The notes under the pieces: generated by a model
Database searches by the model: none
What the model was told of the DNA's origin: nothing
The model's input: the letters and a program-made list of their open reading frames with translations, nothing else
From: Ectocarpus siliculosus
Lineage: Eukaryota; Sar; Phaeophyceae; Ectocarpales; Ectocarpaceae
Direction: 5' to 3'
NCBI GenBank assembly: GCA_000310025.1
Contig: FN649741.1
Location: 7,923,699-7,987,698 of the forward strand
DNA length: 64,000 bases
Shown here: in pieces, positions 24,687 through 59,500 of the stretch
Layout of the letters: each line of letters opens with the position of its first letter
How positions within the stretch are numbered: position 1 is the first letter of the stretch
Position numbers and translations under genes: made by a program

Positions 24687-24782
24687 CTTCTGAACCCGAG
24701 CCGGGTGGTTGCGTAGGTTGTGGGGTAGATCCCGGCGCGGCCGTGCCCAGTGCAGGTGTAGCCGCGGGCGCAAGTGTGGCCG
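24687..24782 (-). CDS. left-arm stalk exon (third in transcript order)
   Basis: A 96-bp exon, phase 1 to phase 1, with acceptor CGGCAG and donor GTAAGA intact. It encodes an Ala/Pro/Thr-rich segment (ATLAPAATPALGTAAP...). It precedes the truncated transmembrane exon on the same strand. Confidence 0.55.
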
Positions 24783-25425
24783 CTGCCGCGAGAACCAGGT
24801 TGGCGGGTATTTAAGGACGTATTTGGGTTGGGACACTCGAGAGCTTCGCCAGTTAGTCATGCTTCACCCTACATACCCCCAGCCGGAGGAGCGGGAAGCC
24901 GAGCCAACAAGGGAAGCATGACAGACGACCATCCGTGGTGGCATGGATGCGCGCACTCAAGCAGTTGGAAGAATAATCACACGTTCGGAAGACATGGTGC
25001 TCGAGAAAGTCTTGAAGTATTGATTGGGTCTCTCGACAAACAACGGTCGGAAATGTAAACTACAGGATTCCTGCCGGCACATCGGTTCAATTCCTGCCGT
25101 TCGGAGTTATTCCAAAAGATAATATGACCCTACACAGCATGTAGGGAGCACACCAGCAACAGAGCTCGGTAACCAGCACTAGGGGAAACTTAGGCCCTTC
25201 GTTCACTAGCGGTGATGACTACTAGCCCCGTCACTTGAAGGATAGAATAACGTTGCTGTAAGGAGGGCGGGAGGTTTCGGGTGCGAAATTTATCACTCCG
25301 GATGGTAGTGAGCTGGGAATGTTTGGAGCAAAGCTGGGGATATGTCATTATTCGACCGCCTAGTGCCTGTCTTTGACACTACGGCATGCCCTAGTTGAAC
25401 GGGAATGCGGCATTAGGTCTCCAAC

Positions 25426-25521
25426 GTTCTGAGCTCGAGCCGGGTGCCGGCGTAGGTTGAGGGACAGATCCCGGCGCGGCCGTGCCCAGTGCAGGTGTAG
25501 CCGTGGGTGCAAGTGTGGCCG
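25426..25521 (-). pseudogene. left-arm stalk exon with a degraded donor
   Basis: Same 96-bp layout as its neighbours, but the GTAAGA donor seen in the other seven copies is replaced by GTTGGA and the last exon base differs. Splicing of this copy is doubtful. Confidence 0.55.
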
Positions 25522-26150
25522 CTGCCGCGAGATACCAGGTTGGCGGGTATTGAAAGACGTATCTGGGTTGGGACACTCGAGAGCTTCGCCAGTTAGTCAT
25601 GCTTCACCCTACACAACCCCGCTGGAGGAGCGGAAAAGCCAAGCCAACAAGGAAAACACCACAGACGACTTCCTTGGTGGCATGGATGCGCGCACTCAAG
25701 CAGTTGGAAGAATGATCACACGTTCGGAAGACATGGTGCTCGAGAAAGCCTTGAAGTGTTGATTGGGTCTCTCGACAAACAACGGTCGGAAATGTAAACT
25801 ACAGGATTCCTGCCGGCATATCGGTTCAATTCCCGCCGTTCGGAGTTATTCCAAAAGATAACATGACCCTACACAGCATGTAGGGAGCACACCAGCAACA
25901 GAGCTCGGGAACCAGCACTAGGGGAAGCTTAGGCCCTTCGTTCAGAAGTGGCGATGACTACTAGCCCCGTGATATGCCGGCGGATAGAATAACGTAGCCT
26001 TGACAAGGGGGACCGGTCTTGGGTGCGGAAAAATTTCACTCCGGATGGTAGTGAACTGGGCATGTTTGGCGGGATATGTCACTATTCGACCGCCTAGTGC
26101 CTGTTGTTGACAAAACAGTTGAACGGGAAATGCGGCATCAAGTCTCTTAC

Positions 26151-26240
26151 CTTCTGAGCTCGAGCCAGGTGCCGGCGTAGGTTGAGGGGCAGATTCCGGC
26201 GCGGCCGTGCCCAGTGCAGGTACAGGCGAAAGTGTGGCCG
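26151..26240 (-). CDS. left-arm stalk exon, 90-bp variant
   Basis: Phase 1-1, acceptor CGGCAG, donor GTAAGA. It is six bases (two codons) shorter than the usual copy and encodes ATLSPVPALGTAAPESAPQP and more. Confidence 0.55.
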
Positions 26241-26945
26241 CTGCCGCGACATATCAGGTTGGCGGTTACTGAAATATGTATTCGGGTTTGGACATTTGGA
26301 CAATCGAGAGCTTCGCCAGTTACTCATGCTTCACCCTACATAACCCCGGCTGGAGGAGCGGAAAAGCAAGGTCAACAAGGGAAGAATGACAGACGACCTT
26401 CCCTTGGTGGTACGGTTTCGTGCACTCGATCCGTTGGAAGAATAATTGCTCCATTTGCTAAGACTTACTGCTTGAGAAGGTTTTTTGCAGTATTGAATGG
26501 GTTTCGAGACAAACCGTGGTCGAAAATGCAACCTATGGGATTCCTGCCCGCACATCGGCTCAGGTGCTCTCGAGAGGAGTTATCACAACATCGAATATGG
26601 CGATGCATGTCTGCTTACTGCCCTCGTAGGCCATCAGCTGAACCTATGAACAATTTGTTTTTCGTTGCAGACGGCGTCTTGGCGCAACCTGGGCATGCTA
26701 AATCAAGGTTGCATCTAGTTCCTAGACATCGGGAAGCACTTGTGGTCGTGGATGAATCTAGACTATGGGTGTTGGACAGTATCAGTTCGTTGACTGCCCA
26801 AGTCTCTCGATGAAGAGGATCGACTTGAACGATAATGTACTACGGATCATGCTTTGCGGGCCTGTGTTCTCTCACCACAGGTGTACCCTTCATCTCCGGG
26901 AGTGCACACGTTGTCGATCACGCCCTCAATAGAACACCCTGGGGT

Positions 26946-34880: not shown

Positions 34881-34980
34881 NNNNNNNNNNNNNNNNNNNN
34901 NNNNNNNNNNNNNNNNNNNNNNNNNNNNNNNNNNNNNNNNNNNNNNNNNNNNNNNNNNNNNNNNNNNNNNNNNNNNNNNN
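34881..34980. other. assembly gap (100 N)
   Basis: Exactly 100 N follow an 18-base C run. The round number suggests a placeholder gap of unknown true size. Confidence 1.
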
Positions 34981-37440: not shown

Positions 37441-38841
37441 ACCTACAGGTTGCAGTTGGTTTGAGGTCGTTGGGGCTCTGTGGGCGGAGATCTGCCTGGT
37501 GGAGAAAATGAGAAGTGTCTCCATCGGTAGAGCCAATGGCGTTGCTGTTTTCGAAACGTTTTCGAAAACAGTCAGTCACCTAAACAATCGATTGTCAGAA
37601 GGGGGTCGCTTACAACGGTCGAAAATATTCTTCACCGAACCCAATACTGAAAACTTGTAGTTGGGCGGGGTGAATGAGCCACGGGTTACGACTCAATACG
37701 TTGCAGTATTCTATCTGCGATGCTGTGCGAGACACGCTGCTTCCAGGCAACCACCCCGCACACGCGCGCGGGCGGAGTGGTCCGCAATCTATAATCTACG
37801 TACAATAGAAAACGTGTCCGGAGGAGTCTATGTATTCGGGCGGATCTTCAAGACTGACAGGTTGGTTCATCCGCTCCCCCGCTGAGTGTCAAATGCTGTT
37901 CTTGGATTCGGATTTGCTGTGGCCGGCGACTACAAGTACGACGCCGAAGACCTTCCTTTTTCAATCCGTCCACGCCGTCCTTTCCCGAAACGCGCAGCTC
38001 ATCTTTTCTGTCATCATGGACACGGCGTAGGAGAATGTTGGAGATGCTCTACTTGATCCTCCTGCTGGGGCTCTCCGCGTTGTTGGATACCTCCGCAGGT
38101 GGGTGGGGAGGGTTCGATCAACATTGGGGAACACCATCGATGGTGTGTAAGTAGTTCGTGTTATCGCCACGGTCATCTCGTACTATCGGTGGTCAGAACC
38201 ATACCACAGCTCTCTAACTTTGTTCCGCGACACCAATAGGGAGAAGAGCAACATTTTGATCCAAACGCTGGTACGTAAATGTTGCTTCGATGTCTTGCGT
38301 AGTAGGCAGGCAGGTGAACACCGAACAGGGGGTGGGGGTTCGCCAGCAAAACCCAGGATTTACAGCAGTGTGGCGTGTGATTACACCACGCTTGTTCACC
38401 TCTTCGAGTAGTGAGGAGCCGATCGCCCCGGTGGTTCACTTGGTGATGGCGAAACCACTATCGTGTCGGCTCCCCATCCCCTTACAGTACCCCCCTAAAG
38501 AATTTGTCGACAAGAGCGACCGACTATATTGGAAAAGGTAAGGGTAAGCTTCGTAGGCCAATTTTTGTTGCCGCAGGTGTGCTGGGTCGGCGTGAAAGAC
38601 TTTGTGAAGTGCGATATTTGTTCCTGTTTCGCAGGAGTCGATCTCACGCAGCAGAATTCGTGGAATCTCGTGATACGTCCTTGCAGCCGTCATTTGCCGA
38701 CGTTCAGATTCACATCGATACCCGCTAGTTCAACGGAACCTGTCTTGAGTTCGACCGACCCCTCAATATGGAATTTTTGTTTTTTGAGGGTTGCACGTGT
38801 GTAAAGGAAGGTGTAGTGTATTGGGCACGAACGCTATAGCC

Positions 38842-38991: not shown

Positions 38992-40624
38992 CAAGAAATG
39001 GAAACACTTTCCACCGTTCGGAGAGATTGCCAGCTCAATATCTTCCCTGCCTGCCTGTGTTCGTGTGCTGACGTCATCGGACATTGTCCTACTTTGTTCT
39101 GTGCCTCGAACCGCCACGCCGGTATTGGTTGTGGAGGCTGCGGTCGATGGTTGATCGACTGGATAAGTTGGCTGTTCCCCCGTCAATCGGTACCAGTTTT
39201 TTCGAGCTCGATTTTTCGTTTGTCTCGTACTCGGGTGTCTCTTCTCTGTCGTGGGAACATGCCAGTACGGTGCCATGGTCCAATGGTCGATTCGGCAGTA
39301 TACAATTCTGATACGGCTGCTCCACTAGCATAGACCGTTCTGTGCCAATCTCACCATTCGCCCACTCATCTCCTCTCATCTGCCGTCTGTCCTGCGTACG
39401 CCGTTGGTTGCAGTTAATGTATGCCTGGACTCCACCGATGCCGACAGATGTCAGACTACTACTGGAACTTTGTGAGCCCCTACCGAAGTATATGTTGCTG
39501 CTCCGCACGACCCCAAATATACTTGATGGTGGCCGACAAAGCACCCGTTGATGATACTCGGCGTGGCTCGTTGCAGATCGATTGAGTTACCTTGCAGGGT
39601 GGGAATTTGCGATTTCTTCGTCAATGCTCGCTCGACCATCGGCGATGTTGAAAATCTAGCCTCCGGTACCCGTTGGTAGGCAACGGTTGGGCAGTATTTT
39701 GAGTTCAGGGTATTTGGCAAGGTAGTCATTCCCGCACGCTCATGCGCTTTCTGTGGATCAACGAGGCCGCACCTCACACAGAGCAAAACTTGACCCGCCG
39801 TTTGGTGTGTGCGGTTATATCCCAGGAGCCTTAGTTCGTGCGGCATAACAGATGCCGATTTCGACGACCTAGCGTCATGCTTGGAAGCTGCTGGACCAGA
39901 AACAATCACATCTCTGTGAGTGCATCAATATGCCATGATTTACGATATGGTGGGTGGGATTTGACCAAATGCTGGACACATTTGTTCGACGTGGCCTTTG
40001 CAAGGTGCTGTACTGTACATCCGCCAAGTCGGCTTGAAGCGCATGTGATGAATGAGCTACTGTACCGTACGCCCCGTTTGGTTCTTCGTGCGTGCAATCC
40101 TCCCATCCCCGCAGATGTTGTGTCGTTGTGTAGTATGGGGTTTTGTGGGGAAAGCTGAGAGGCCGGGTCCTTGTTGATGTGCTCTTTGTTTTGGGGTGTT
40201 CCCCCTTTCCTTGTCGTTTCTGTGGGAGTCTGGAGTTCTCGGTCGTGTGGACGGACGTGTCTCGTGTGTTGGCAAGGTTGGCCGTTGTCCAGATCTTGCC
40301 TCGTACCAGTGACAGATTTTTCCTGTGAAAACTCATAGTGTAAAAGGAAAACACTATTTATACAATGGAACGACACACGTTTGCTACCAGCGTACATTGC
40401 GCAACATGTCATGGGCCACGGATGTCCGGTGGTCTGTTCTTGGATGTGGTGTCCCGCTACGCAGAGTTCGCAACATGCTGTGTGTTCTCGTCTTGTTACC
40501 CACGAACGAACGCAGACTGCTATCCTGCAGACGCGACGTCGAAATATTTTACTCTTCGCGTGTTGCGTACACTCTGTGCCACCTCCATAGGCCTTTGATG
40601 CAACCTGTATGTACTCTATACCAA

Positions 40625-40775
40625 TGATATCGCGAATAGTGCGCCTTCCCGCACTATTGATGGTACTGAGAACCCTGAATAGTGCGTCTTCCCGCGCTAT
40701 TCAGGTCCAAAATCATATAGTGCGGGTGAAAGCGCTTGGCACATATCCGCACTGTAGAGGGAACCCCACTGTATA
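40625..40775. mobile_element. MITE-like block with AATAGTGCG palindromes
   Basis: AATAGTGCGCCTTCCCGCAC and AATAGTGCGTCTTCCCGCGC, each followed by TATT, form short inverted repeats. The block ends GAGGGAACCCCACTGTAT, like the GGGACCTCCACTGTA end of the element at 13.17-13.36 kb. Probably a related non-autonomous element, sitting just upstream of the first LRR-exon unit. Confidence 0.4.
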
Positions 40776-41454
40776 CCAATCGTGCCATGAATGATTAAGC
40801 CCCAACGACCGCGCCGGAAAGCAGTTGGTACGAATTTCGATGTAGAACATGTGAGGGTGCCCAAGACCAGCTCCAACCTACCCATCGTAGTCTCGCTGTG
40901 GTTTTCCCGTCTACCCCCAGCCGCAGCACTGCCTCGAAGCTTGCATGGGTTGTCTGTGAAACATACGAGTAGGTCAATTTCGGCTTGAATGTGCGTTCGT
41001 TCGGCAATTTTGCCGGTACATCCATCGTGTGTAAGCATTTGTTGAGGTGATCGAGAGGAGGAGGCGATCTCGGCGTGGCTAGAACCGCGAGCATCGTACT
41101 TCTACTGCGGAACGGCATAGATTGTCGTTTCCTGGTAATGGCGGTAGACCGTTTACATGGTGGTGCCCTCACGGGCCTGATATTCTAGTCGCCCATCCGA
41201 TCCGCGGTGTACGCAATGCAACCCTGGAACGAGTTACGACTGACAACATCGCCCTCAGCTGTAGCGGGAATGATTGTCCCCAGGTATTCACACGGAGGCG
41301 AGAACCGTGACTTTGCTAGTAGCACAGAACACCGTCTGTGCATGTTTTGGTGGGCTTGTCGCACCTTGTAGATGACTGTGTGAGGTAGCAAGCACTGATT
41401 CCTAGGTAACGTGTGTTCTCTGCTCCGCTCGTGGCCTTCCCTCGACATCCACAG

Positions 41455-41526
41455 GTACCTGAATGACAACGAGCTCACCACCTTGTCTGAGGGAACCTTC
41501 GGGGGTCTTACGGCCTTGGAAACACT
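41455..41526 (+). CDS. LRR exon 1 (type A)
   Basis: A 72-bp, phase 2-2 exon encoding YLNDNELTTLSEGTFGGL then TALET, with the Leu codon split across the junction. The acceptor ends CACAG and the donor is GTAAGT. It is the only repeat with Ser in place of the Pro of the LPEG motif. Confidence 0.85.
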
Positions 41527-44500
41527 GTAAGTACTGTAGCTGTTCGACGGTAGGATACTTCCCGTAGCCTGCGATGAAGAACACAAAGACCACAGACCAA
41601 TCGTGCCCCTGAACCATTAAGCCCATAGAGCGCGTCAGAACGAAGCTGGTAGGAATTTCGGTGTAAAACAGGTGGAGGTGGCCAAGACCAACTCCAACCT
41701 ACGTACCGTAGTCTCACTGTCCGTCTACCCCCAGCCGCGGTACTGCCTCGAAGCTTGCATGGGTTTGTCTGTGAAACACACGAGTCGGTCAATTTCGATC
41801 TGATTGTGCGTTCAGTCGGACATTTTGTGGGTGCATCCATCGGACGTATGCATTTGTTGAGGTGATCGAGAGAAGGAGGCGATCTCCGCATGGCTAGAAA
41901 CGCGAGTACCTAAAGATCGTCCTTCCACTACGTGACGAGATAGATTGCCGTTTCCTGGCAATGGCCGTAGACCATTTAAATTGTGGTGCCCTCACAGGCC
42001 TCACATCCTATTCCCTTATCCGATCCGCGGTGTGCGCAATGCAACCCTGGAACGGGTTACGACTGACAACGTCGCCCTCAGCTGTAGCGGGAATGGTGTG
42101 ATTGTATCCAGGGAAGCACGCTGCTGCGTAGTCACGTTGCTAGCAGTACAGAACACCGTCTGTGCACGCTGGCAGGCTAGCCGCGCCTTGCAAATCACCA
42201 TGTCCGGCAGCAACAACTGATTCCTAGCTCATGTGTATTGTCTGCTCCGCTCGTGGCCTTCCCTCGACACCCGAAGGCACCTGTATTCCAACGGACTCAC
42301 GACCTTACCTGAGGGAATCTTTCATAATACAACGGGTCTACAAACACTGTAAGTAGTTGTTCGACATGGTTATCGGTAGGATGCGCTTCCGCATCGGGTC
42401 AGCCTGCCTAACCCTAACCAAAGGCCACAGACCAATCGTTCCCCTGAACCATTAAGCCCCAACGACCGCGCCGAAAGGCAACTGGTGGGAGTTTCAGTGT
42501 AGAACAGTTTGGGGTGCTCAAGACCAGCTCTCAACCTACGCACCGTAGTCTCGCTGCCGTCATGGTGTCAGCCTCTAACCGCTGCACTGTCTGGAAGCTT
42601 GCATGGGTTTGTCTGTGAAACACACGAGTCTCGGTCAATTTCGATCTGATTGTGCGTTCATTCGGACATATTGCGGGTAGATCCATCGGATGTATGCATT
42701 TGTTGAGGTGATCGAGAGAAGGAGGCGATATCGACGTGGCTAGAAACGGGAGCACCCAAGGATCGTACTTGTACTGCGAAACTGTGTACATTGTCGTTTC
42801 CTGGCAATGGCGGTAGACCTTTTACATGTTGGTGTCCTCACGGGCCTCGTATCCTAATCTCTTATCCAATCCGCGGTGTGTGCAATGCAACCCTGGAACG
42901 GGTGACGACGGCTAACTCAGCAGCTGTAACGGGAATATGGCAGGATTGGTATGATCGTACCCAGGGAATCACGCGGCGGCGTAGAATCCGTGACTTTGGG
43001 AATGCCACAGAATGCCGTCTGTGCATGTTGGTGGGCTCGCCGCGCCTTGCAAATCCCCATGTCCGGCAGCAAGCACAGGTTCCTAACTCACGTGCGTTCT
43101 CTGCTCCGCTCGTTGCCTTCCCTTGACACCCGAAGGTACCTGGCTGAGAACGAGCTCACCACCTTACCTGAGGGAATCTTCGGGGGTCTGGCGGCCTTGG
43201 GAACACTGTAAGTAGTTGTTCGACATGATTGTCGGTACTTGTAGGATGTTTTTCCGCATACGGTGAGCCTGCGATGGACAACACAACGCCCACTGACCAA
43301 TCGTGCCCATAAATCATTAAGCCCCAACGACCACCCCGGAAAGCAACTGGTAGGAATTTTGGTATTGAACAGGTGGGGGTGCCCAAGACCAGCTCCAACC
43401 TACGCACCGTAGTCTCGCTGCGGTTATCGCGTCCACCCCCCACTGCTGCACCGTCTCGAAGCTTACGTTGAAATGGTTGTGTCTGCCAATCACACGATTC
43501 CATCAACTTCGATCTGCATATGCGTTCATTCGGCCATTTAGCCGGTAAATCCATCGCATGTATGCATTTGTTGAGGTTATCGAGAGAAGGAGGTGATCTC
43601 GAGCACCCAAAGATCGTACTACATATCGGGATCCGTTTCCTGGCATTGGCCGTAGACCTTTTACATGGTGGTGCCCTCATTGGCCTCATATCGTAATCCC
43701 TTATCCGATCCGCGATGTACGCATTGCAACCCTAGAACGGGTTGCGACGGCCAACTCAGTCGCCTCAGCTGTACATTAGTGGGAATATGGCAGGATTGGT
43801 ATGATTGTATCCGTGACTTTGCTAGTGCCACAGAACGCTTTCTGTGTCTGTTGGTGGGCTCGCCGCGCCTTGTAAATCACCATGTCCGGCAGCAACAACT
43901 GATTCCTAGCTCATGTGTAATGTCTGCTCCGCTCGTGGCCTTCCCTCGACACCCGAAGGCACATGTATTCCAACGGACTCACGACCTTGCCTGAGGGAAT
44001 CTTTCATCATGCAACGGGTCTTCAAACACTGTAAGTAGTTGTTCGACATGATTGTCGGTAAGACTTTTTCCCGCATCGGGATAGCCTGCGATGGACAACA
44101 CAACGACCACAGACCAATCGTTCCCCCTGAACCATTAAGGCCCAAGGACCGCGCCAGAAAGCAGCTTGTAATGCTTTCGGTGTAGAACATGTGGGTTAAT
44201 TCAAGACCAGCTCCAACCTACGCACGGTAGTCTCGCTCCGGTTATGGTGTCTGCCCCCAGCTGCTGCACTGTCTCGAAGCTTGGGTCGGGACGATTGTCA
44301 TACAGACGGTTTGGTCAAATTCGGCCATTGTGCGGGTAGATCCATCGGATGTATGCAGCTGTTGAGGTGGTCGAGAGGAGGAGGCGATCTCGGCGTGGCG
44401 AGAAACGCAAGTACCCAAGCATCACCATCGCCACGGGGTAGGTCATTGTTTTTTGGAATTGACGGTAGGCCTTTCACATAGTAGTGCCCTCACGGTCCCA

Positions 44501-47500
44501 TTTTCAATTCTCTTATCCGATCCGTCGTGTACGCAACGGTAAACGGGTTCGGACGTCCAACTCAGTCACCTCAGCTGCAGCGGGAACAAGGCAGGATTAG
44601 TATGATTCTATCCTGGTCGTCGCGCGGCGGCGGTCCGTGACTTTGCTAGTCCCACAGAAGCCGACTGTGCATGTTGGTGGGCTGGCCGCGCCCCGTAGAA
44701 CACCATGTGAGGCAGCAAGCACTGGTTCCCAACTCATGTGTGTTCTCTGCTCCGCTCGTGGCCTTCCCTCGACATCCACAGGTACCTGTCTGAGAACGAG
44801 CTCACGACCCTGCCCGAGGGAATCTTCGGGAGTCTTACGGCCGTGGAAATTCTGTAAGTAGATGTTCGACATGGGGACAGGTAGGGAATTTTCGGCATCG
44901 GGTTAGCTTGTGATGGAGAACACACAACACCACAGACCAATCGTTCCCATGAACCATTAAGCCCCAACGAGCGCGCCGGAATGCAATTCGTAGGAGTTTC
45001 GGTGTAGTACAGGTGGGCGTGCCCAAGACCAGCTCCAACCTACGCACCGTAGTCTCTCTGCGGTCATCGCCTCTACCCCCAGCCGCTGCACTGTCTCGAA
45101 ACTTGAGGTTGGATGGGTTTGTCTGTCAAGTACACGAATCGGTCAATTTCGATTTGAATGTGCGTCAATTCGGCCATTTTGCTGGTGTATCCATCGGATG
45201 TAAGCATTTGTTGAGGTGATCGAGAGGTAGAAGCGATCTCAGTGTGGCTAGAAACGCGAGTACTCAAGCGTCGCTATGCATAGCGGGATAGGTCGTTGTT
45301 TTTGGATTTGACGGTAGACCTTTCACATACTAGTGCCCTGCCTCATATGTGAGCCTGCGCACTGCTCTGTGGTTACGGGCGTGATGGTATGTGTCTATCG
45401 TGAGCGAGAGAGAGGCCATATGCGCATGTCCAACAAGTGTTTTGAGGGATTCTGGGCGGTGCCATAGTGCTAGCAGCGATATAGAAGTATACTGTAGAAG
45501 TCGGCGGGGCTTGGTAATTTCCTAAATGGTCTATGTACTGTATCCAGTACGCCCGTCAACGGAAACGGGCAATGTAGTATCCTTCGGAGAACCCCCGAAC
45601 CATGAGACACCACCCTCCAAAGAATTCTCGCTGGTGCATCACAAATTGCATACCTTTCGAACGCCTTATCTTTAGAAGCGCCCGGGGGGTTAATGGTCGA
45701 ATGTTGGGCGGGTGACCAGACGTTAACTCCGAACAGCCGTCCCTGTGGAGATATTTGAGCGTGCTTCCATTCACTAGGGCACAGCCATGTTGACATGCCG
45801 GCGAGCCCTAGGCCTACAGGGCCCCGCAACTCCCTAATAGTCAGATCACACGGATTCCGACCCCCCGAGGCCTCGTGTATCATACCCACCACGGCGTACA
45901 CCTATCAGATCTTACATAGGCAACGGTTTCCTCTCCCCTGGGCTGGGGTTGGGGCACCACTATGTTTGGTGGTTTACCAAAAACATTATGAAAATTTGCC
46001 TTTTCGTCCCGAAATGCGGTAAAACGTGTGTGAGGCAAATTGGACAAACACCAACACCCCTGAACACTCCATTTTTTTCTTTACACCTGGGAACGTTGAA
46101 CCCCGTGGGCTCTATTTTGGTGTGGAAAGATACCCCTCTAATTTCGATGTCACGCCGGGCTTTTTTTCCCCGTGACATTTATCTTCTCACTGCGGGGGGT
46201 GCTCAAGTGATACTCCGGTACCGGTCGTACGGCAAGTATATGGTCGCTGTGTATGCAGTGGGCTGGATCTATCATCGGCTCCGCGTGTCCGAAAAATAAT
46301 TTGGCTGGTCATCACGCGGCGGAAAAGAGACGCCGTTACTCTACCAAAGCATTCGAACTTCGTCAACGCAATGGCAAATGGTTGTTCATGGCTAACTTGT
46401 CCTTGCCTTGCTCCGCCCATGGCCTCCACTTGACACTCGAAGGTCGCTGGCCAACAATGACCTCACCACGCTGCCGGAGGGAGTATTCCAGGGTCTCTCG
46501 GACCTGACAACACTGTAAGTGGCTACGATGCTTTTCCGCATGGGCTCAGCCTGTGCTACAGAAATGAAATCACCAAACGTTTTCCCGGTTTGCTCGGGAG
46601 ATGCTAGGGAGAGTATCATTGCACTTGAAGCGCTACTGTCCAAGTCGGCGAGAGTTTGGTACTTTTAAATCAGCCCCCTTGCTCTAACCTGGCGCCAAAG
46701 ATGGTACCCAGCGCACCTGGAACGGGTAGCTGAGAAGTTCGGACGCTCTTCGGTGCTGAAATGATTGATCGTTGGCACGGTTGGTTGAAAATGGTCCTCT
46801 TACGAATTTCCTCAACTTCGTACTCTAGTCTCGTGCAGATACTCTACGGTCTACCGTGCAACCACATCACAGTTTGTTGTTTTCGTCTTTCCGTCTTCCG
46901 TGCGCAATTGGGAGATTCGAGGCCAGGTAGCTAAACGTGCTGGGAACGAGGTTCATTTTGTGGTCCACAGGATACATAGCCCGGGCACGACCTTTGGTAT
47001 CGGTTGTATGCTCGTCGTTGTTGCTGACGGCGTACGTGCTTAATGCACTGAGCCCTGTCTGCATTCGGCATGAGATCACACCCATACTTGTGCTTTCCTT
47101 ATCTCAGTGTTTCGCATATGGCCTCAACATGCAGGTTCTCTTGTAGACCCTTTGATGCTTACGTAAAAACGAACACCCGCAAATCCTGGAAATGTGGTAC
47201 TAAGTACTTCGTAGGGAATCATTGTACACCTTGGCCCAAGGTAGCGTGCAATATCCAGTTTATTGTTGTTTTCTTTCGAATTGCTTCATTATTTTTCTTC
47301 GGGTTCTAGGCCACATGTTGGGAAGCGAGACACACGGAACGCCCATCGTCTCACCAGCCACATTAAATTAACTAATACGAGGCGCCAGGTTTCCGAACAA
47401 TTAACGAAACTACAAATCCGAAACTGATCACCAACACACCATATTTTATTCTGTCTGTTCGACGAATATGCTTTCCTCTTCCCGACATGGCAAGCCTTTT

Positions 47501-50500
47501 GGGTTAGGATCTTGCAAAGCTCCTTTCTCAAGCCCCTCCGGTTTTACTGAAAGTTATTCCTTTCTTGGAGCGAGCTTCCATCATATATCAGGAGGAGTCC
47601 TTCGATTTCCTCCCAGGCACCCCATGAGAATAGAGGAGTAGACTGTCGTCCTATTCTACCATTTTCTCCCTACTTCGACCGTCATGGGCGCGGTACTGCG
47701 GGCGTGATTTGTTGCTGTCCTAACCTAGCGCTCCCAACGAGCTGCTCTTTGTATCGGTAGTGGCACCTTGCTTACCTTGCTGTTCCCTCCTCCTCAACGT
47801 TTGGTCCGTTGTTGCATCTGCTGTTCTCGTCCGGTCTTGCGCTGGCGAATCTCGTTCGGGGCCTGGATTTTAGGTGGCTGGACGGAAACGCTCTGGAGTG
47901 CTTGCCCTCAACCACACTGTGAGGAACGCCAAATACGCATCGATCGATGGTTTCGAAATACATATCAACAGAGCATTTGGACAACAGTATCACGCGTTTG
48001 GGGATCTAGCCAGCATCACGTAGAGACCAAGCACACCATTGTTGTCCGCTGCTGCTCGCGATATCGGACGAATGCGTCTTCCTGTAGCATTATTTCTCTG
48101 AATGTTAACCGCAATGTGCTTCGTAGAACACTAAAATCGTCGAGCCGCTATCGCGTTGGCCGTATTGTTCGGGCCCACAACTATTTAGTTTGATCGCGCA
48201 CGCATTGGCTCTTAACATGTCTAAATCACGCAATGCATCTTCGGTTGAACCTGCAGAAAGGAGTTTTTCCCGGCTTGCTCCTTGCTTGTGTTTTGCGCAT
48301 GAAGCATTTTCGTTGATGCATTGCATCGTAGATCAACATCGCTTCATTTGCTTAGACCATTTAGCGCACCCTGTTGACCTCATGTGCGCACTTCGCAGGG
48401 TGGAAGTTGATGATGATGTTTCGGACGGGCTCCACGTTGATGCATACGGTGACGAATGTGGTGAGTGGTTCGCCGAGAAAGGTGTACCGATGGGGTTGGT
48501 GCTCGATAGGTGCTCACCGGTACCATGTTGCTTTTGCTGCCTTGCAGTCTTTGCCCCACGAAAGTATCGGGTAGATCATGTCGCTTTTTCAAATGAGGGT
48601 GCCTAGTAGCAGCTCGCGTGGGATTTTGGTTTGCGCTCCATTTAACAATCGAGGCATCCCACAGCGGCTCTTGGTGGGAGCGGCACAGAGGTCCAGCGAA
48701 ACATCGTTCGGCGTCGCCCGTTGGTCCAGATACTGTACATATATTACACGCTCCCTCGTGCAATCTGGATCGCTGTGAAGGGCGGACAGCTGTACCATCT
48801 GCAGACTATACCGTGAAGAGAACGCATGGCAAAACGGGTCACGATGGGTCTGCAAATCGATTCAATCGCGACCATCGTTTGACGTCAAGACGATGATCGA
48901 AAGGAGCTGCAGTGCTAATTGAGCCCAAACGCGGCTGTTCCATGCTACTTGACAGCTCTCACTCTGTGCAAAAGCGCATCTCCAAACCTCCGCGCGAGAC
49001 TGGTTTCGAAGTTCACAATCTGGCGAGGGGTGGATGCAGGCATGCTTAGTTTGGGCGAGAAGTGTTGTCATCGTTCTCCCCAAGCAGCACCATTGTAGGC
49101 TTTGTACCTTCATGTGCAAATATTGCCATGCGCCCCCCACTGACGTGCTTCGAACGTTTTCAGGGTGTTCTATTACGGGCGTGGTCGACAACGTGTGCGG
49201 AGAAGAAACGTGCACTCCCGGAGATGAAGGATACACCTGTGGTGAGAGAAGATAGCCCCGCAAAGCATATTCCGTAGTAAATTATCCTCTACATCGAGGG
49301 GCTTGGGCAGTCGACGAACTGACACTCTCCAACACCCATAGTCTAGATTCACCACGACAACAAGTGCTTCTCGATGTTTAGGAACAAGATGCAACCTTGA
49401 TTTAGCATGCTCATTTTGGCCAAGACGCCATCTGCTACTTATTTTATAATTCGGTGTTTGTTTGAACTGTCAGCTGATGGCCTACGAAGGCAGTAAGCAG
49501 ACATGCACCAAGAAGACATGCATCGTCTACTCTGTTGTAATAAACTCCGAACGACAGCGACTGAACGATGTTCGGGCAGGAATCGCATAGGTTAGATTTG
49601 CGACCGCTCTTTGTCGCCGGACCCATTCAATACTTTAGAAGACTTTCCTCAAGTAACTATTGTGCCAACTGATTGGGTGCGCGCATTCATGCCCCCAATA
49701 AAGGTCGCCTGTCCTTTTTTCGTTGTTGGCTTGGTTCCCACTCCTCCAGTTGGGATTGTGTAGGGTGAAGCATGACCAACTGGTTAAACTCTCGCGTGAT
49801 CCAACCCAATAAATCCTTCAATACCCGCCAACCCGGTATCTCGCGGCAGCGGCCACACTTGTGCCTGCGCCTACACCTGCACCGGGTACAGTCGCGCCGG
49901 GATCTACCCCACTACCTACGCTGGCACCCGGCTCGGGCTCAGAAGGTAAGAGACTTGATGCCGCATCTCCCGTTCAACTAGGGCATGCCGTATTGTCAAT
50001 AACAGCCACTACGTCGTCGAATACTGACATATCCCCGGCTTTGCTCCAAACATGCCCAGTTCACTACTGTCCGGAGTGATATTTTCCGCACTCAAAACTC
50101 TCCGCCCTCCTCTAAGCTACAATGTTCACGGGGTTAGGCCGCTAGCGAACGAATGGTCTTAGCTTCCCCTAGTAGTCCTGTTTGCCGACCTCTGTTGCTC
50201 GTGTGCTTCCTACACGTTGGGCAAGGGTCATCGTATACATGTGTTGTAGTAAATCCGAACGACAGCGATTGAACCGATGTGCCGGCAGGAATTCTGTAGT
50301 TTACATTTGCGACCGCTTTTTGGCGCGAGACACATTCCATACTTAGGACTTTCCCAAGCACTAGTCTTCCTAACGTGTGATGGTTCTTCCAAGTGATCGA
50401 GTGCGCGCATCCATGCCCCCGATGAAGGTCGTCTGTCGTTTTACCCTTGTTGGCTTGGCTTCCCGCTCCTCCGACTGGGGGTATGTAGGGTCAAGCGTTT

Positions 50501-53500
50501 GAGTAACTGGTGAAGCTCACGATTGCCCAATCCAAATACGTCCTTCAATACCCGCCAACCTGGTATTTCGCGGCAGCGGCCACACTTGCGCCTGCACCTA
50601 CACCTGCACTGGGCACGGCCGCGCCTACGCCGGCACCCGGCTCGAGCTCAGAAGGTAAGAGACTCGATGCCGCATCCTCCGTGCAACTGTGGCATGCCGT
50701 GTTGTCAGTAACAGCCACTACGTCGTCTAACGTTGACATCCCTCCGGATTTTGCTCCGAACATGCCCAGTTCACTACATACTATCCGGTGAGATATTTTC
50801 CGCACTCAAAACTTTAACCCTCCTCACAGCTACGCTATTCTATCCTTCAAGTGACGGAGCTAATAGTCATCTCCGCTAGTGAACGAATAGTATCAGCTTC
50901 CCCTAGTATCTTGTTTGCCGACCTCTGTTGCTCGCGTGCTTCCTACACGCTGGGCAAGGGTCACCGTACACTTATGTTGTAGTACATTCGAACGACAGCG
51001 ATTGAACCGATGTGCCGGCAGGAATCCTGTAGTTTGCATTTGCGACCGCTCTTTGTCGCGAGATCTATTCAGTACTTATATTATAGACTTTCTCAAGCAC
51101 TAGTCTTGTCTTCCTAACCTGTGATTGTTTTCCCAACTGATTGAGTGCGCGCATCCATGCCCCCAAGGAAGGTCGTCTGTCGTTTTGTCTTTGTTGGCTT
51201 GGCTTCCCGCTCCTCCGACTGGGGGTATGTAGGGTGAAGCTCTCGCGTGTCCAACCCAAATAAATCCTTCAATATCCGCCAACCTGGTTCTCGCGGCAGC
51301 GGCCACACTTGCGCCTGCGGCTACACCTGCACTGGGCACTCCCGCGCCGGGATCTGCCCCTCAACCTACGCAGGTGCCCGGCTCGAGCTCAGAAGGTAAG
51401 AGACTTGATGCCGCATATTTCGTTCAGCTGGGGCATGTCGTATTGTGCGAAACAGGAACTACACCGTCGAATACTGGCACATGCCCGGCTTTGCTCCAAA
51501 CATGCCCAGTTTACTACCATCCGGAGTGATATATTTCCGCACCAAACACCGGCCGCCCTCCTCAAGGGTGCGCTATTCTATCCAGCATATCACGGGGGGC
51601 AACCGGTCCTCTCCGCTAGTGCACGAAAGGTCTCAGCTTCCCATAGTGGTGCTGTTTGCCGAGCTCGGACGCTTGTGCGCTCCCTACATGCTGTGTAAGG
51701 GTCATGGTATATGTTGGGGTAACTCCGAACGACAGCGATTGAACCGATGTGCCGGCAGGAATCCTGCAGTTTACATTTGCGACGGCTGTTTGTCGCGAGA
51801 CCCATCCAATACTCATAATATAGACTTTCTCAAGCACTATGTCTTCCGAACGTGTGATTCTTCCAACTGATTGGGTGTGCGCATCCGTGCCACCAAGCAA
51901 GGTCGTCTGTCGTTTTTTCCTTGTTAGCTTGGCTTCCCACTCCTCCGGCTGGTGGTATGTAGGGTGAAGCATGACAAACTGGTGAAGCTCTCGGTTGTCC
52001 TAACCCAAATACGTCCTTCATTACCCGCCAACCCGGTATCTTGCGGCAGCGGCCACACCTGCGCCTGCGCCTACACCTGCACCGGGCACGGCTACGCCGG
52101 GATCTACCCCACCACCTAGGCCGGCACCCGGCTCGGGCTCAGAAGGTAAGAGACTTGATGCCGCATTTCCCGTTCAACTGGAGCATGCCGTATTGTCAAT
52201 AACAGTCACTACGTCGTCGAATACTGACATATGCCCGGCTTTGTTCCAAACATGCTCAGTTCACCACCATCCAGGGTGATATTTTCCGCACCCAATACTG
52301 GTCTAGTGGTAGCCTTGAAACCGCTAGTGGCAGAATCGTGAGTTAGGGCCCTCATGCGGTGGAAAATTTACGTTCTTGCGAGTGTATCCGAAAAAATTGA
52401 ACTGCTCGTGAGTACCAAACCTTCGACGTGAAGCCGAGTCTTGAGCACTCTGAGATTTATTTTTCCTCTCTCTCGGGGGGGGGGTTAGTCTGCACGGGAA
52501 AAAATATACAGATCCAAGCGACCGTCTCGGTTCCTCGAGGCATGTTTTTCCCCGGGGGGAAAAAAGGCCGGGTAGTCTGCACGGGAAAAAAAATTCAGAT
52601 CAAAGCGACCGTCTCGGTTCCTCGAGGCATGTTTTTCCCGGGGGAAAAAAAGGCCGGTTTAAGTTTTTGTTGGTCACAACATGCTTCCGTTCACGGTTTT
52701 GGCTCGTGTGCGACCAACAAGACACCGAGCGCCCTGTTTTTGGTTCGCCTGCAGAGGGCATGTGCATGAGCGCCCGCCATTGGCTGCACTTGGTGGGTGT
52801 CGTCGGCCAAAGGTCTCTCTCTGTTGTGCGTTGTTGACTGAGCATACTCGGAGAAACCAGAAAAAAAAAGCAACGTCCAAAGCAGTCAACACCGAAACAT
52901 ACTTGCGTTCATGTTTGCGTGTGCAATAAAAACTTGACAATACGCCCTTTTCTGGGACGCTAATAGCAGAGGGTATGAGTATGACCGCACGCCATTGACT
53001 GCAGTTAGTGGATGTCGACGGCGTAAAGCTTCTCTCTGGCATGCGTTTTTGGAAAATCACACATGCCGCAGGCACAAAACAGTCTCTTTTCGGCCGAAAG
53101 GCAAGAACGTCAACAGAGCAATGTTGCAGGGTTAATGTTTCGGCTCGTGTGTGGCCAACGCGACGCAGAACAACCTGAAATTCAGATACCTGCAGAGGGC
53201 TTGTGCATGACCTCGTGGTACTGGCCTCTGTTCCAGCAGACGGTGCACTGTAGTTCCTCGATCTGGGACGATCGCCCCCATTTCTAACCTCGAAAGTATC
53301 AGCCGATCCAGCTTAGAATCTGGGCCTATCTTCTAACTTGCCAACTGAAATCCCAGGAAATATTCGGTCAGTATGGATTTAGCTTTAGGAACATGCCATT
53401 TTTCTCCGCGTAAGGGGCTACGAAAAGAACAAAAAATGCATCCTGAAATTAATCAGTGCTGAAGTCGCTGCCTTAGCAACGTCGACGAGGGAAAGGGACG

Positions 53501-56500
53501 CGGCTGTACCCTTCTCGCGACCAAAGATAATATTTAGCACGTACATGTACAGCAGAAGGAAGGTGGGACACGAGAATACCAGTGAACAGAAGCCCCCGTG
53601 TTTCCCCCCTCCTGTGTGACCCTGGATGGTTTGTCAGTAGTTGTGTGAAATAATAAACTGAAGAATGAAGTATTATAGAGAAGTATACATAGCACACGTC
53701 TCATCATGAAAAATGGGGGGAGTGTCGCCGTAACAAATACCTGGTAGGACGAAAATACACACACACACACGCACGACAGCGGCCGCCCTCCTCAAGGCTA
53801 CGTTTTTCTACCCGGCATATCACGGGGCTAGGACTCATTCCCGTTAGTGAACTAAGGGTCTCGGGTTCCCCTAGCGCTGTTAAGACTTCTGTTCCTTGTG
53901 TGTTGCCTACATGCCGTGTTGGGGTCATGGTATACTTTTGTGTTGAAATAACTCCGAACGACAGCGACTGAACCGATGTTCCGGTAGGAATCCTGAAATT
54001 TACATTTTGCCGCCACTGTTTATCGCGAGACCCATTCGACACCTATAACGAAGACTTTCTCAAGCACTATGTCTTCCAAACGTGTAATTTTCATACAACT
54101 GGTCGCGTGCACGCATCCATGCCCCCAACGAAGGTCATCTGTCGTTTTTTCCTCGTTGGCTGTCGTTGTTTCCTCGTTGGCTTGGCTTCGCTCCTCCGGC
54201 TGGGGGTATGTACATAAGGCGAAGCATGACTAACTGGTGAAACCCTCGCATGTCCAACCCAAATAAATCCTTCAATACCCGCCAACCTGGTATCTCGCGG
54301 CAGCGGCCACACTGGCGCCTGGGGCTGCACCTGCACTGGGCACGGCCGCGCCGGGATCTACCCCTCAACCTACGCAGCCACCCGGCTCGAGCTCAGAAGG
54401 TAAGAGACTTGATGCCGCATCTCCCGTTCAGCTAGGGCATATGCCGTATTGTCAAAAGCACGAACTACGCCGTCGAAATGTTGACATATCCCCGGCTTTG
54501 TTCCAAACATGCCCAGTTCATTACCATCCGGAGTGATATTTTCCCGCACCAATCATCGGCCGCCCTCCTCATGGCTACGTTATTCTATCCGGCATATCAC
54601 GGGGCTAGTAGTCATTGCCGCTAGCGAACGAATGGTCTCAGCTTCCCCTGGTAGTGCTGTTTCCCGACGAGTGCTGCTTGTGTGCTTCCTACACGCCGCG
54701 GGGGCATGGTCGTTTGTTTTTCTGTAGTTCTGTTAATCGTTTTTTTACAAATGCCCTACCTCGTGGTTGATGGCGAGTCAATGGGTTTCGGCGAAATCTA
54801 ACACTCTCCCTGATGACGTGCTGGAGAGGATGGGAGGATAGGATACATTGGCGGTGTCTCACGGTCATTACTCACGCGATCGCGACGTGGCGCCGCCAAA
54901 TAGCGCCCAATAGTACCCTTTTTGTTTGTTCTCAGCAGGTATGTTTGCTCGGCACTGCAGCCCGTCTCATACGGGTTGCCTTCTGCGTCACTTCTCCTTT
55001 TCTCGCACCATCCCCAGTCACCGCCCTCCCACGGGTCGTACAGGAGGGGAACGGTTGCGTTGTGGAAGAGTGCATGGCGTCGCAACGCCGACGAGCTTGG
55101 TTTCCGAAATAAACCCGTCTTGAAACCCCCATGGAAAAATGTATGTCTAGGCTCTCGTTCGTTTTTTTTTCCGTCCACTGATTGACCGTGGCCGTCAAGG
55201 TTTCTGGGTACAATAGTGTTTGAGAGCTGGAGGTTGTCCACCTTCATGATGGATGAGGTGTTGTTCTCATGCGCGGAACCCGTCCAGTTTAGCCGATAAA
55301 TTTACCCTCCCAGGTTGCCATCGACCCTCCAAAGTACCATGTACTTGCTTTGAGGAAACGGCCGGTTGCACACAAAACGTTTACGCACACAGTCTTGTGT
55401 AAAACCTGCGGTGAGATGGCAAAGACTATCGCAAAGACTAGCACTGAAATGCTTCGGGTTGATACGTCGAAAAAACTTTGTCCTGTTACCAGCCGTTGCC
55501 TATCGGACTCCCGCCTCCATCAACGCTCATCGCTGCTCGTCCGCCGCTCGTCTGGTCACAGAGGGCGCATCGACGGTGGACGTTGTGGTCGGCGTTGCGG
55601 CGGGCGCGCTGGCGTTAGCAGCATTGGGGTTCTTCCTACATCGCCGGCGGGCCGCGAAAAGCACGGACCCCGACCCGCCGGCCCCTCCTTCTAACGGTTT
55701 GGACAGCCTGGAGCACGGCCGGGGTGAACAGCACCGGCAACGGCAGCAGGACCTCCACTCCTCTTCGCCGATCATCGCCGGCTCCGCCGGGGGCAACGTT
55801 ACCCGCTGTCCGCCACCTCCTGCCCAGCAAGTTTTTCAAAGCTTTGCGCCGCCGCCCCCATCGTATGCGCATGATAATGCACACCGACGCGGTGCTTGGC
55901 CAGCCTCCGCCAGTCAGCAGCATGTGGTTATCGCCGCTGAGACAACACTCGGCGAAGATGGCACGACCATCCAATCGTTGTTCCCAGCGCCACCCGTGGG
56001 TACCTTGCCGAATCCCAGCTCCAAGGGAAAGCCCAAGCGCACACGCGACAACAATGAAAGCGGTGGTGGCACCAGGACGGCGGACGCGGGCGAGGGCGGG
56101 GGGGATGCTGTGGAAGACGGCGACGGCTGCGTGGCGGTAGCCGAGCAGTCGCTGCTGCCGTTGACGACTACGAACTCCACCAACGACGTGTCGACGGAAG
56201 AACGGACGGCCGAGGTTGCCGGGTTCGGGTTTTCGGTAGACGAAGGCGCCGACGACCCTCCTTCGGCGGCTGCTCCTGCTGGCCGCCGACAGACGCCCAG
56301 CGGCGTCGGGTACGGTCAGGCAGTACTGGCGGCGGCAGAGGAGCTCGCACATCATTGTCAGATCCCCGGCATCAGTGAGGCAGCGACAGCGGTGTCGATT
56401 CTGATACACTTGGTCGTGGACACTGAGGACTTGACGAGCAGCGCCGGGGTTAAGCGGTGCCGGTCGATCGTGATGATGCTCGAGCGGGCGGCGAAGGTGC

Positions 56501-59500
56501 TCGGCAAGGTGAGCGACATGACTGGTGTTGTTGGAGTGTGCACAATGCATTGTTCTGTCGTATGTATCCTGCCTGATTTAGAGACGTCGAAGGTGTTGGA
56601 AACAAGCTTTCTTCTTGGCGTACATATTGGAATTTTCAGGTACGATCAAAGATCTGTCACGCGGTGTCCTTCGCTTGCTCCTGCAGAATCGCACAGTTCT
56701 CTCTGCCACAAAAACTAGTTGAGGCATTTCAATGCCTCATGATGTCGATATTGTTTTGGCTTCGTTTGAGCCAAAGAACCCCGAAACTTGCAGCTTGTGT
56801 CTCGTGGAAGGTTTTGCCGTCATTGTCCGGAACGCAAGCCTATATTTCATCACGGGTTCGAGCGGTTGGGCCTATACGTGGTCTGTACTCGTGCGCATTG
56901 TGTCTGTGCTGTTTCAAATATTGAAATGTTTTTTGTTGCACAAATTGTCAAAAGAAATATGGACCAGGTCCTTCGATCAGATTGGAAGCGTTTCGTCTTG
57001 TTTTCTTTTTATGGTCAGATTTGGATCATGAATTGCAAAAATGAGTGCGCAATAGGCGTAGGAACGCCTGCTGTTTAGTCGTTGAGTGTTTGCTGAGGCG
57101 ACGCCCACACCACCCCGACCACCCCCAACACCTACTCTCTGCTGCTGTGCGACTGTGGTGTGATGTGTGCGAAGGCGGGCACATCGTTTTCTCCGTTGTG
57201 CAAATGTTGTCGCTCGATAAAAATCGTTGTGCACGTCTCGTATGCATACTGTTGTGTACATGTAGGGTGGCGACACGAGCACGGAGGAGGAGCGCGTTTT
57301 GATGGAAGAAGTGCACGATGCCGTCTCCGATCTCGTGGAGCTGATCACATCTTACCAGAACAAGAGCAAGCTCGGCAAGGTGTTGACATCGACCCTGTTC
57401 AAGCGGCGCCAGGACGAGCTGAACGCGGTTATCGACAGGGCTATCTGGGGCCTGCACGTGAGTGCCGTGTACCACAAAATATGCCATCATAGTCTTCTTA
57501 CAATGTAAGTTTTCTGTGAGAACGCTTCATTTCGCTTCTTTCGGCTGCTGTGAGCGCTCTATTCCGGTCTTCTCGGGCTCTCACAGAGCAGCATTTCCTC
57601 TGGAAATTTGGCACTTTGGTGGACTTTCCACTTTTATCTTCCGCTTTTATCTCTCTCGCCTGCTGCTGTCACCCCGCTCTGTACCATCATACCGCGCATT
57701 CCACTCGAAGTACGGCCCTCTCTGTGTGTGCCTCCTTCTCCTCCGTTCCTCCGTCTCTCTATGTCTCTGACGGTCTGTCTATCCACATTCTCTTTTCATT
57801 TTCGCCTTCTCTCTTGACCGCTCTCGCGTCGGAATGGTCTGTTGTTTGTTCCGATTCCGTGTGCTACTGCTGTACATTTTGTTTTTTCTTCGAACACCTT
57901 CACACGGTATGCACTCACCTCCTATCACCTTGGTACCGTATTCTCTCTCTCTCTCTCCTCTCGGTGTGTGTGTGTGTGTATCCACGATGTCTTTAATTTT
58001 TTGCTTTTCTCTCTTCACCGCTCTCGCGTCGGAATGGTCTGTTGTTCGTTCCGATTCCGGCAACGGTGTTGTGTGCTCCGGTTCCGGTAATCCCTTCTAA
58101 AGGTCCGGAAAATACAAAATACACTCCTTTCTACCTCCACTCTCGATGGCTACCCCGGCCCACTCCTCCCACTTCTCTGTAGCTACTCTGGCTACAGTTA
58201 AGCACCTTCATTTTAACAACATCCTACACCCACGTTCAGAGAAAACCTTGCCTTGGAATCGCTTCAAATAAAGCGGGGGCGCGCAGCGCCCAAAACCTTG
58301 TACTTAGTATGGATTGTACCTCGACTGCGCAGCCAGCTGCGCAAAACATGTGCTGTTGTCTCTCTCATGTCCAGCTACTTCTCAGAGTTCGCTCTGTGCG
58401 CATCGCTCATTTCTTGGAAATGTCGATGTTGGGGTAGGGGACTATATTATCCCGTTTCAGAACTCGCGATTTGACCATTGGCAACGCGGGGTACACCTAA
58501 TGGGAAGCCCTCTCGTAGAGGGGTCGGGCACGGCTGCAATCGGACAAACGTAGGGTTGCCTCAAGGCGCTGAGCACGTCGACCGAACCGTACAGGCAGGT
58601 AGGACTCTGTGGTTTCGCCTTACCGCCTGCCTTTTTCCATGTTGGCTGCTTGTTGTTCGTCCAGTTGGGCCTGCAGGTGCAAGTGGGACACGACGTTGCG
58701 CACCTCGTCAAGGTGAGGGCGTGCCACGGAGATGAAGCGAACTTTTCCCAGAATTCTTCGATTTCAGATGCTGTTGCTGCCCGCCGCAAGATTGTGCCTC
58801 GGTGGCTTGTATTAACCACGGGCCAAGCAGGGCTATGCTCATTGGCCCTCCTGGATCGCGGTATCCATGTAAAGGGCCCTCTCGAGGACATCCCGTTTTC
58901 ACCTTCTTCACCGACTCGCCTCACCTTTTGACCGAATCACTTCTGTGGTCGGGAGGGTTCAGTCAAACAACTCAGGATGTTTTGCGTTTGGCCATGTGCC
59001 CCTCGGTGATTTTTCGTTCGTTTCTATTTACCAGAGGTCAACCGCGGAGGCCCAGGCTCAGGCAGAATCTCTGGCACAAGCCCAGGCTCGGGCAGAATCT
59101 CTGGCGGAAACCCTCAGGTCGAGGCGGCAGCGCAAGCTTGACCAGATCGAAATCCCCGAGGAACACGTGTCGATCACGACCGAGGTGCTGGGAAAGGGGG
59201 GCTTTGGCGTGGTGTACCTAGCCGACTACAACGGCCACAACGCGGCGGCTAAGGTATGAGTGAGCCATTCGCGACCTGTAGGCCGAAGCATCTGCGAGTA
59301 CAGTCTAACCACCGAGCGAGCGAGTAGGGCCTGCCTGGGGAGCGGAGAAACCACCCGCGACCACCGGCAGGAGTCATCTTCACCCCTTTTTCGTTTTCCG
59401 CTGTCGTGCTTTGTCTGGTTCATTTTCGTGTTATTGACGACGTCGGTACATGTATCGCTGAATGATGCAGGTACAACACTTCACCCACGGCCTCGGCAAG

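Follow-up and report, generated by a model that had tools for sequence, protein, structure and literature searches.

The locus described here raises the question whether two neighbouring arrays of short exons encode a single receptor, and whether such a gene could alter its sensing surface and the length of its stalk separately. Both arrays are found on the forward strand of a stretch of 64,000 nucleotides from the brown alga Ectocarpus siliculosus (GenBank assembly GCA_000310025.1, contig FN649741.1, positions 7,923,699 to 7,987,698), which was analysed as a whole, is referred to as the window and supplies the numbering of all coordinates. The first array encodes leucine-rich repeats (LRRs) and the second a proline-rich stalk. 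A first-pass annotation had assigned the range 41455-55561 to one receptor ectodomain; the exons that it contains proved real, while the gene as modelled by us starts upstream of this range and ends beyond it.

A single gene model connects both arrays

By joining exons through consensus splice sites and phase, we obtained a 22-exon model at 38035-61866 (+ strand), which displays a single open frame of 1,119 amino acids with one stop at its end and none across the 3,360 coding bases ahead of the last codon. The introns contain GT donors and AG acceptors in 21 of 21 cases each. We consider it likely that a single gene is present, encoding an LRR receptor kinase of the cell surface that passes the membrane once, with a presumed role in ligand sensing and with all 22 exons predicted to be spliced together. 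The exons and the tandem units of the first array are as follows.

38035..38098, + strand: putative signal-peptide exon, phase 0-1, MLEMLYLILLLGLSALLDTSA
39852..39915, + strand: N-cap exon, phase 1-2, ends ...ITSL in LRR register
40765..45340, + strand: tandem genomic units with LRR exons 1-5, edges inside introns
41455..41526, + strand: LRR exon 1, type A, 72 bp, phase 2-2
42277..42348, + strand: LRR exon 2, type B, 72 bp, phase 2-2
43136..43207, + strand: LRR exon 3, type A, 72 bp, phase 2-2
43959..44030, + strand: LRR exon 4, type B, 72 bp, phase 2-2
44782..44853, + strand: LRR exon 5, type A, 72 bp, phase 2-2
46443..46514, + strand: LRR exon 6, third type, beyond the tandem units, 72 bp, phase 2-2
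47874..47918, + strand: short LRR-like exon, 45 bp, phase 2-2, WLDGNALECLPSTT
48399..48460, + strand: adapter exon, 62 bp, phase 2-1
49164..49241, + strand: Cys-rich exon, 78 bp, phase 1-1
49850..49945, + strand: stalk exon 1, 96 bp, phase 1-1
50577..50654, + strand: stalk exon 2, 78 bp, phase 1-1
51300..51395, + strand: stalk exon 3, 96 bp, phase 1-1
52050..52145, + strand: stalk exon 4, 96 bp, phase 1-1
54304..54399, + strand: stalk exon 5, 96 bp, phase 1-1
55562..56508, + strand: exon for the putative transmembrane segment (judged by eye) and for juxtamembrane sequence, 947 bp, phase 1-0
57266..57457, + strand: helical juxtamembrane exon, phase 0-0, below-cutoff Pfam matches only
59035-59253, 59471-59869, 60225-60344 and 61591-61866, + strand: kinase-region exons, phase 0-0, with the terminal stop

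In its 5' part, the model runs from the signal peptide (0-1) via the N-cap (1-2) to LRR exons 1-6 and the short LRR exon (all 2-2), and it continues in its 3' part with the adapter (2-1), the Cys-rich exon and stalk exons 1-5 (all 1-1), the transmembrane exon (1-0) and five cytoplasmic exons, all of phase 0-0. The 2-2 array is in this way nested between a 1-2 and a 2-1 exon within an otherwise phase-1 ectodomain chain, and the predicted model shows phase-1 boundaries after the signal peptide and around the ectodomain modules. Its introns have a median length of 751 bp and a mean of 975 bp, compared to mean lengths published for Ectocarpus (703 bp) and Saccharina (1,057 bp) (PMC4421812). The GC content, 52.7%, would fit Ectocarpus.

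The certainty of individual exons was graded by the number of strict-consensus splice-site candidates per interval. The adapter exon, which had been proposed to convert phase 2 to phase 1, is the single strict candidate among 69 loose ones in its interval, and the short LRR-like exon is likewise the only one among 85, whereas the Cys-rich exon is one of three and is conserved in a second copy described below. For the N-cap exon, which is one of 12 strict candidates, the choice was made by LRR register. In a scan for ATG starts followed by a hydrophobic stretch and a GTRRG donor, the start at 38035 and the in-frame ATG at 38044 were the sole signal-peptide-like starts with a phase-1 donor at 37-56 kb on the + strand, and no second such exon was found at 38.2-56 kb on this strand. 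Together with the one frame passing through all 22 exons, this supports the proposed single ectodomain. An additional exon within 57457-59035 may be absent from the model.

Predicted extracellular repeats, membrane segment and kinase

A Pfam scan of the whole model identified LRR_8 (E=5.9e-43) downstream of the signal-peptide-like exon, with a predicted extracellular location of the repeats, and PK_Tyr_Ser-Thr (E=1.4e-52) at residues 831-1109, where the match spans positions 4-254 of a 258-position profile. The 13 Pfam matches to the 1,119-residue model at E<=0.1 include neither a ROC nor a COR family. In a comparison with proteins of solved structure, the LRRs match best to LRRC15 (3.9e-75), LRRTM, IGFALS and LGR4, with the intracellular SHOC-2 also scoring high (1.9e-51) and VLR A lower (3e-42) among the best 60 of 268 sequences at E<=1e-10. 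Following the signal peptide, a single obvious hydrophobic stretch, VDVVVGVAAGALALAALGFFL, succeeded by HRRR, was recognized by eye as a candidate transmembrane segment.

The best match of the kinase among the best 60 of 547 sequences of solved structure at E<=1e-20 is plant CTR1 (1.4e-36), in view of which the kinase probably belongs to the TKL group. Hand-picked strings taken to represent G-loop, Lys, Glu, HxD, DFG and APE are retained, and the predicted cytoplasmic kinase domain is intact in sequence. The catalytic loop contains HGD in place of HRD (exon 59471-59869), which defines the protein as a non-RD kinase, a class tied to innate immune signalling across kingdoms (PMC8463890). A search of viral contigs revealed no relative of the kinase, since of four stretches that fit a pattern none was confirmed.

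When searched alone, the juxtamembrane stretch at 56308-57457 gave below-cutoff matches to GIT1_C (E=0.0056 and 0.011) and MLKL_N (E=0.022 and 0.017), neither of which appeared at E<=0.1 in the scan of the whole model, and its search against solved structures with phmmer yielded one chance-level match (E=0.48). An MLKL-like bundle inside a receptor kinase would be notable if true; since the matches are below cutoff and lost in the whole-model scan, membership of the juxtamembrane helices in either family is not claimed.

An array of single-repeat exons

To define the first array, we scanned both strands of the entire window for open phase 2-2 exons of 45 to <160 bp with AG/GT bounds and an LRR pattern. 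The 11 resulting candidates comprise the six 72-bp LRR exons, which are located where the first-pass annotation had placed them, are all in phase 2-2 and all carry the donor GTAAGT (6/6), the 45-bp LRR-like exon at 47874-47918, which it had overlooked in its count of six, and four unrelated exons, none of 72 bp.

LRR exons 1-5 follow each other at spacings of 822, 859, 823 and 823 bp, and the homology of the units extends from about 40765 to 45340, which places the edges of the array inside introns. Exon 6 begins 1,661 bp after exon 5 and has about 112 bp in common with the tandem units, so that the suggestion of a separate tandem unit for each array applies to LRR exons 1-5 and not to exon 6. 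Across the five units, the exons have a constant length of 72 bp, and their introns contain many gaps. Abutting the upstream edge of the array, hairpin-like sequence recognized by eye at 40620-40765 possibly corresponds to an insertion.

Two exon types in similar introns

Within the tandem units, the LRR exons alternate in the order A-B-A-B-A, with exons 1, 3 and 5 belonging to type A and exons 2 and 4 to type B. Exons differ at 33-38% of sites between types and at 7-17% within types, compared to a divergence of 16-25% of the flanking introns irrespective of the pair compared. Sites that split exons 2 and 4 from the remaining three amount to 14/72 in the exons and 6/605 in the flanks (Fisher p=1.6e-10), with at most 4 such sites in any 72 columns of the flanks, and among the ten possible splits this is the only one with such an exon excess. 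The excess is also found at third codon positions (4/24 vs 6/605, p=3e-4). Between types, non-synonymous divergence (dN) is 0.37-0.51 and synonymous divergence (dS) 0.55-1.05. By the usual LRR numbering, the changes occupy both faces of the repeat, with no apparent restriction to the ligand-facing side.

Since the divergence between exon types, including third positions, exceeds that of the introns, the LRR exon types look older than the introns now carrying them. Such a pattern could have arisen either by homogenisation of introns around exons that were kept distinct or by exchange of exon-sized segments, in both cases with or without diversifying selection, and the sites are too few to choose between them. 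Diversifying selection acting on the LRR exons alone, with neither exon-sized conversion nor homogenised introns, would be a rival cause, and the fact that dN between types is larger than the raw intron divergence of 0.16-0.25 speaks in its favour. The high synonymous change found in dS and at third positions instead points to older exon lineages, although numbers are small, and we regard selection alone as a possible account, if not the one that we would expect.

We had expected a topological conflict between exon and intron trees, which was not found, as their shapes are compatible and the difference resides in branch lengths. In the exon tree, the branch separating exons 2 and 4 is long (0.33+0.22, support 100/100), whereas this split is unresolved in the intron tree, whose sole drawn inner branch, uniting exons 1 and 5 (0.01+0.018), is weak (69/94). 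Growth of the array in two-exon blocks was also considered and rejected, because the intron sites grouping exons 2 and 4 (6/605, or 9 sites with other flank limits) compare to 10/605 each for the pairs of exons 1 and 2 and exons 1 and 5.

An array of stalk exons

The second array was characterized in a scan for Pro-rich phase 1-1 exons, which returned many other matches besides the stalk family. It confirmed five exons of 96, 78, 96, 96 and 96 bp at the positions reported in the first-pass annotation, all of phase 1-1 and all followed by the donor GTAAGA (5/5), and on the minus strand it detected three further members of the family. Between stalk exons 1-4, the spacings are 727, 723 and 750 bp, in line with a tandem unit of their own; this description does not hold for exon 5, which follows exon 4 at a spacing of 2,254 bp with about 1.5 kb of non-array sequence between them. 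This intervening sequence (52300-53775) holds an 87-bp tandem duplication at 52486-52657.

Of the 154 residues of the encoded stalk, 75% are P/A/S/T and 25% are P, and [AST]P dipeptides occur 29 times, a composition that may liken it to the glycomodules of arabinogalactan-proteins. Where stalk or Cys-rich exons differ in length (by 18, 6 and 15 bp), the difference is a multiple of three in 3/3 cases, against only 21 of the 75 intron gap runs between adjacent units. Over 28 pairs of stalk exons, the proportions of non-synonymous (pN) and synonymous (pS) differences are 0.115 and 0.128 (pN/pS ~0.9). In 26 of these pairs, exon identity is at least as high as that of both flanks, with stalk exons 3 and 4 of the receptor locus and exons 2 and 3 of the second copy as exceptions. 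The stalk exons thus do not display a split into types of the kind found for the LRR exons, and in most pairs they are not more diverged than their flanks.

Exon phases bear out the presence of two phase-symmetric arrays. That all exons of an array have the same phase is expected after tandem duplication and is by itself unsurprising, and since any tandemly duplicated exon that keeps the frame must be symmetric, phase symmetry permits gain and loss and is no evidence of selection.

An inverted and apparently broken copy

The stalk exons on the minus strand are part of an inverted partial copy of the gene, termed locus B to distinguish it from the receptor locus (locus A), with which it shares about 74-78% DNA identity.

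23066..26941, - strand: locus B as a whole, from its Cys-rich exon through three stalk exons into the start of the transmembrane exon
26938-26876, - strand: Cys-rich exon, 63 bp
26151..26240, - strand: stalk exon 1, 90 bp
25426..25521, - strand: stalk exon 2, 96 bp, with a decayed donor (GTTGGA)
24687..24782, - strand: stalk exon 3, 96 bp

Homology to the receptor ends about 3 bp upstream of the Cys-rich exon (26941 on the - strand vs 49161 on the + strand), which positions the breakpoint almost exactly at the splice acceptor. No recognisable LRR or kinase exons were found in locus B, and the sequence ahead of its Cys-rich exon yielded no LRR exon. The cytoplasmic tail differs in length by a single base, after which a stop follows, and locus B looks like a broken copy as judged from these features. 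Upstream of it, past a gap in the assembly, a signal-peptide-like start with a phase-1 donor at 36872-36752 (- strand) is possibly a first exon of locus B; minus-strand signal-peptide-like starts with a phase 0 donor are located at 36220 and 34625.

The two copies in one genome contain five and three stalk exons, respectively. In a tree of the eight stalk units, the longest alignment separates the units of loci A and B weakly (80/89) and unites exons 2 and 3 of locus B as a close pair (96/95). On shorter parts the separation of loci receives 36/71 and 83/89, and in a tree of the exon with 130 bp downstream, exons 3 and 5 of locus A group with locus B units (95/92), against a clean separation. 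The trees fit a turnover of units within each array without dating it.

Weighing the alternatives

Several points weigh against the proposed receptor gene. The model is predicted from the sequence of one genome, the exon search used a phase filter, and the signal-peptide and N-cap exons are choices. The excess of synonymous change in the LRR exons has few sites behind it. The near equality of pN and pS in the stalk fits weak constraint. The transmembrane exon of locus B shows frame-breaking length differences relative to locus A (1 bp and others), and as this locus looks broken, its lower number of stalk exons may reflect decay and not adaptive change. The proposal that lengths change by whole-exon gain or loss is supported with respect to the difference in stalk-exon number between copies; an adaptive value of such changes is not, given the pN/pS ratio and the state of the three-exon copy.

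With these points in mind, the stalk array could be selectively neutral, a low-complexity spacer in which exon duplications drift and length has no role. Its pN/pS would be as expected, and so would the weak separation of loci and the close pair of units in locus B, as in passive turnover. Conversely, the splice sites, the frame and the composition are kept in 5/5 exons of locus A, which indicates that these exons are not free to decay. We take a neutral stalk seriously while rating it below an even chance.

Alternatively, both arrays might mainly be alternative-splicing cassettes, so that a single genome would yield numerous isoforms lacking one or other LRR or stalk exon. Omission of any array exon preserves the frame, and ROCO genes with 72-bp LRR exons show splice variants with differing combinations of LRRs (PMC11378527). 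The near-identical donors in 11/11 array exons fit constitutive use, without being proof of it, and we find a predominant role as cassettes unlikely.

It is quite improbable that the LRR part and the stalk and kinase part are two neighbouring genes. Such a division would agree with locus B, which matches the receptor from the Cys-rich exon onward only, starting about 3 bp upstream of it and lacking LRR exons, but the two frames are linked by a sole strict-consensus 2-to-1 exon, and the scan of 38.2-56 kb on the + strand revealed no second signal-peptide-like exon with a phase-1 donor.

A pseudogene or an artefact of assembly is very improbable. Although the assembly is a draft, with 100 consecutive N at 34881-34980, and locus B is broken, the coding sequence is free of premature stops and retains its presumed catalytic strings, and LRR units that differ by 16-25% are not read duplicates.

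Relation to known systems

Shuffling LRR exons in brown-algal ROCO genes were reportedly described by Zambounis et al. in 2012. Teng et al. 2024 describe 72-bp one-LRR exons of phase 2 for ROCO genes from four brown algae, attribute an exon-per-repeat design to NB-TPR genes of brown algae as well as to ROCO genes, and add 15 shuffling-LRR sequences from Saccharina japonica, most of them LRR-only (PMC11378527). The receptor locus resembles the ROCO genes in its 72-bp one-LRR exons in one phase (6/6), in their tandem arrangement, in the possibility of frame-safe gain and loss and in a candidate immune role. In contrast to the ROC-COR GTPase of those proteins, it combines a kinase with a putative signal peptide, LRRs predicted to be extracellular, a stalk array and a putative transmembrane segment. 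Nucleotides 3-71 are said to encode the repeat in ROCO exons, compared to 1 nt, 23 codons and 2 nt here, and conventions for phase may differ (PMC11378527).

The order of LRRs, transmembrane segment and kinase is shared with stramenopile LRR receptor kinases, two of which were counted in Ectocarpus in a study whose main text does not contain the words exon, intron, phase or stalk (Dievart et al. 2011, PMC3268121). Among the matches listed in searches of openly accessible papers, no title or opening abstract describes a stalk exon array in a receptor kinase. The length of the human IGHG3 hinge is determined by the number of repeated hinge exons, with alleles carrying 2-5 of them; IGHG3 is an antibody with a single array and allelic variation, whereas the locus described here is a receptor kinase whose difference in number comes from a broken copy only (PMC8674132). 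The defining feature, a stalk encoded by repeated phase-symmetric exons, is present in both, with five phase 1-1 exons found here. The claim that the second array is undescribed consequently stands for this receptor type in the accessible literature and not in principle.

The genes for gonadotrophin (luteinizing hormone) receptors, which encode G-protein-coupled receptors and not kinases, are not known to contain a stalk exon array. They have LRR exons of similar size with all introns in phase 2 (PMC11378527). Metazoan class 1-1 proteins have a signal peptide that ends at a phase 1 intron and is followed by 1-1 modules, as in our model; exon shuffling is described as restricted to Metazoa, and the model differs by its origin outside Metazoa and by the nested 2-2 array between 1-2 and 2-1 adapters (Patthy 2021, PMC8001218).

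Other features of the window

A search of Rfam yielded no match at gathering thresholds, and 10 other reading frames of the window searched with Pfam, out of 104 stop-to-stop frames of at least 120 amino acids, gave nothing at E<=0.01. An inverted repeat of about 285 bp with 94% identity (19348-19631 and 19761-20046) is possibly a mobile element, and a minisatellite at 28272-29112 consists of about 84 imperfect copies of the 10-bp unit CATGAGCTGT. Near the right end, the region 63360-63982 contains a direct repeat of 147 bp (90% identity) as well as repeats of the TTAGGG type; TTAGGGTTAGGG has three exact matches there, compared to 0.02 expected. TTAGGG is the Ectocarpus telomere motif (PMC11541908).

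A proposed receptor with two adjustable parts

In the mechanism that we propose, the ectodomain would present its LRRs on a Pro-rich and probably glycosylated stalk, and the cytoplasmic kinase would signal. The repeated introns could serve as substrate for unequal crossing-over or conversion, and as the array units are bounded inside introns, each exchange would add or remove whole repeats without a shift of frame. Changes in LRR exons would remodel the ligand surface, and changes in stalk exons would alter its distance from the membrane. Both the recombination mechanism and any effect on fitness are inferred.

The gene structure appears to extend the known exon design of brown algae to a transmembrane kinase and to add a stalk array. 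A broader proposal, tentative and in its full form somewhat doubtful, is that a non-animal lineage uses the animal-style phase-1 module rule with a nested phase-2 LRR array, in which LRR types are kept old within homogenised introns while stalk exons turn over freely and set the reach, so that recombination within introns would make specificity and length differ from one individual to another, each independently of the other. Should transcripts confirm the gene model, the locus would encode a transmembrane candidate receptor with an exon-per-repeat design and a built-in way to alter sensing surface and reach separately, and it would bear on the claim that class 1-1 ectodomain exon shuffling is found in animals only (PMC8001218).

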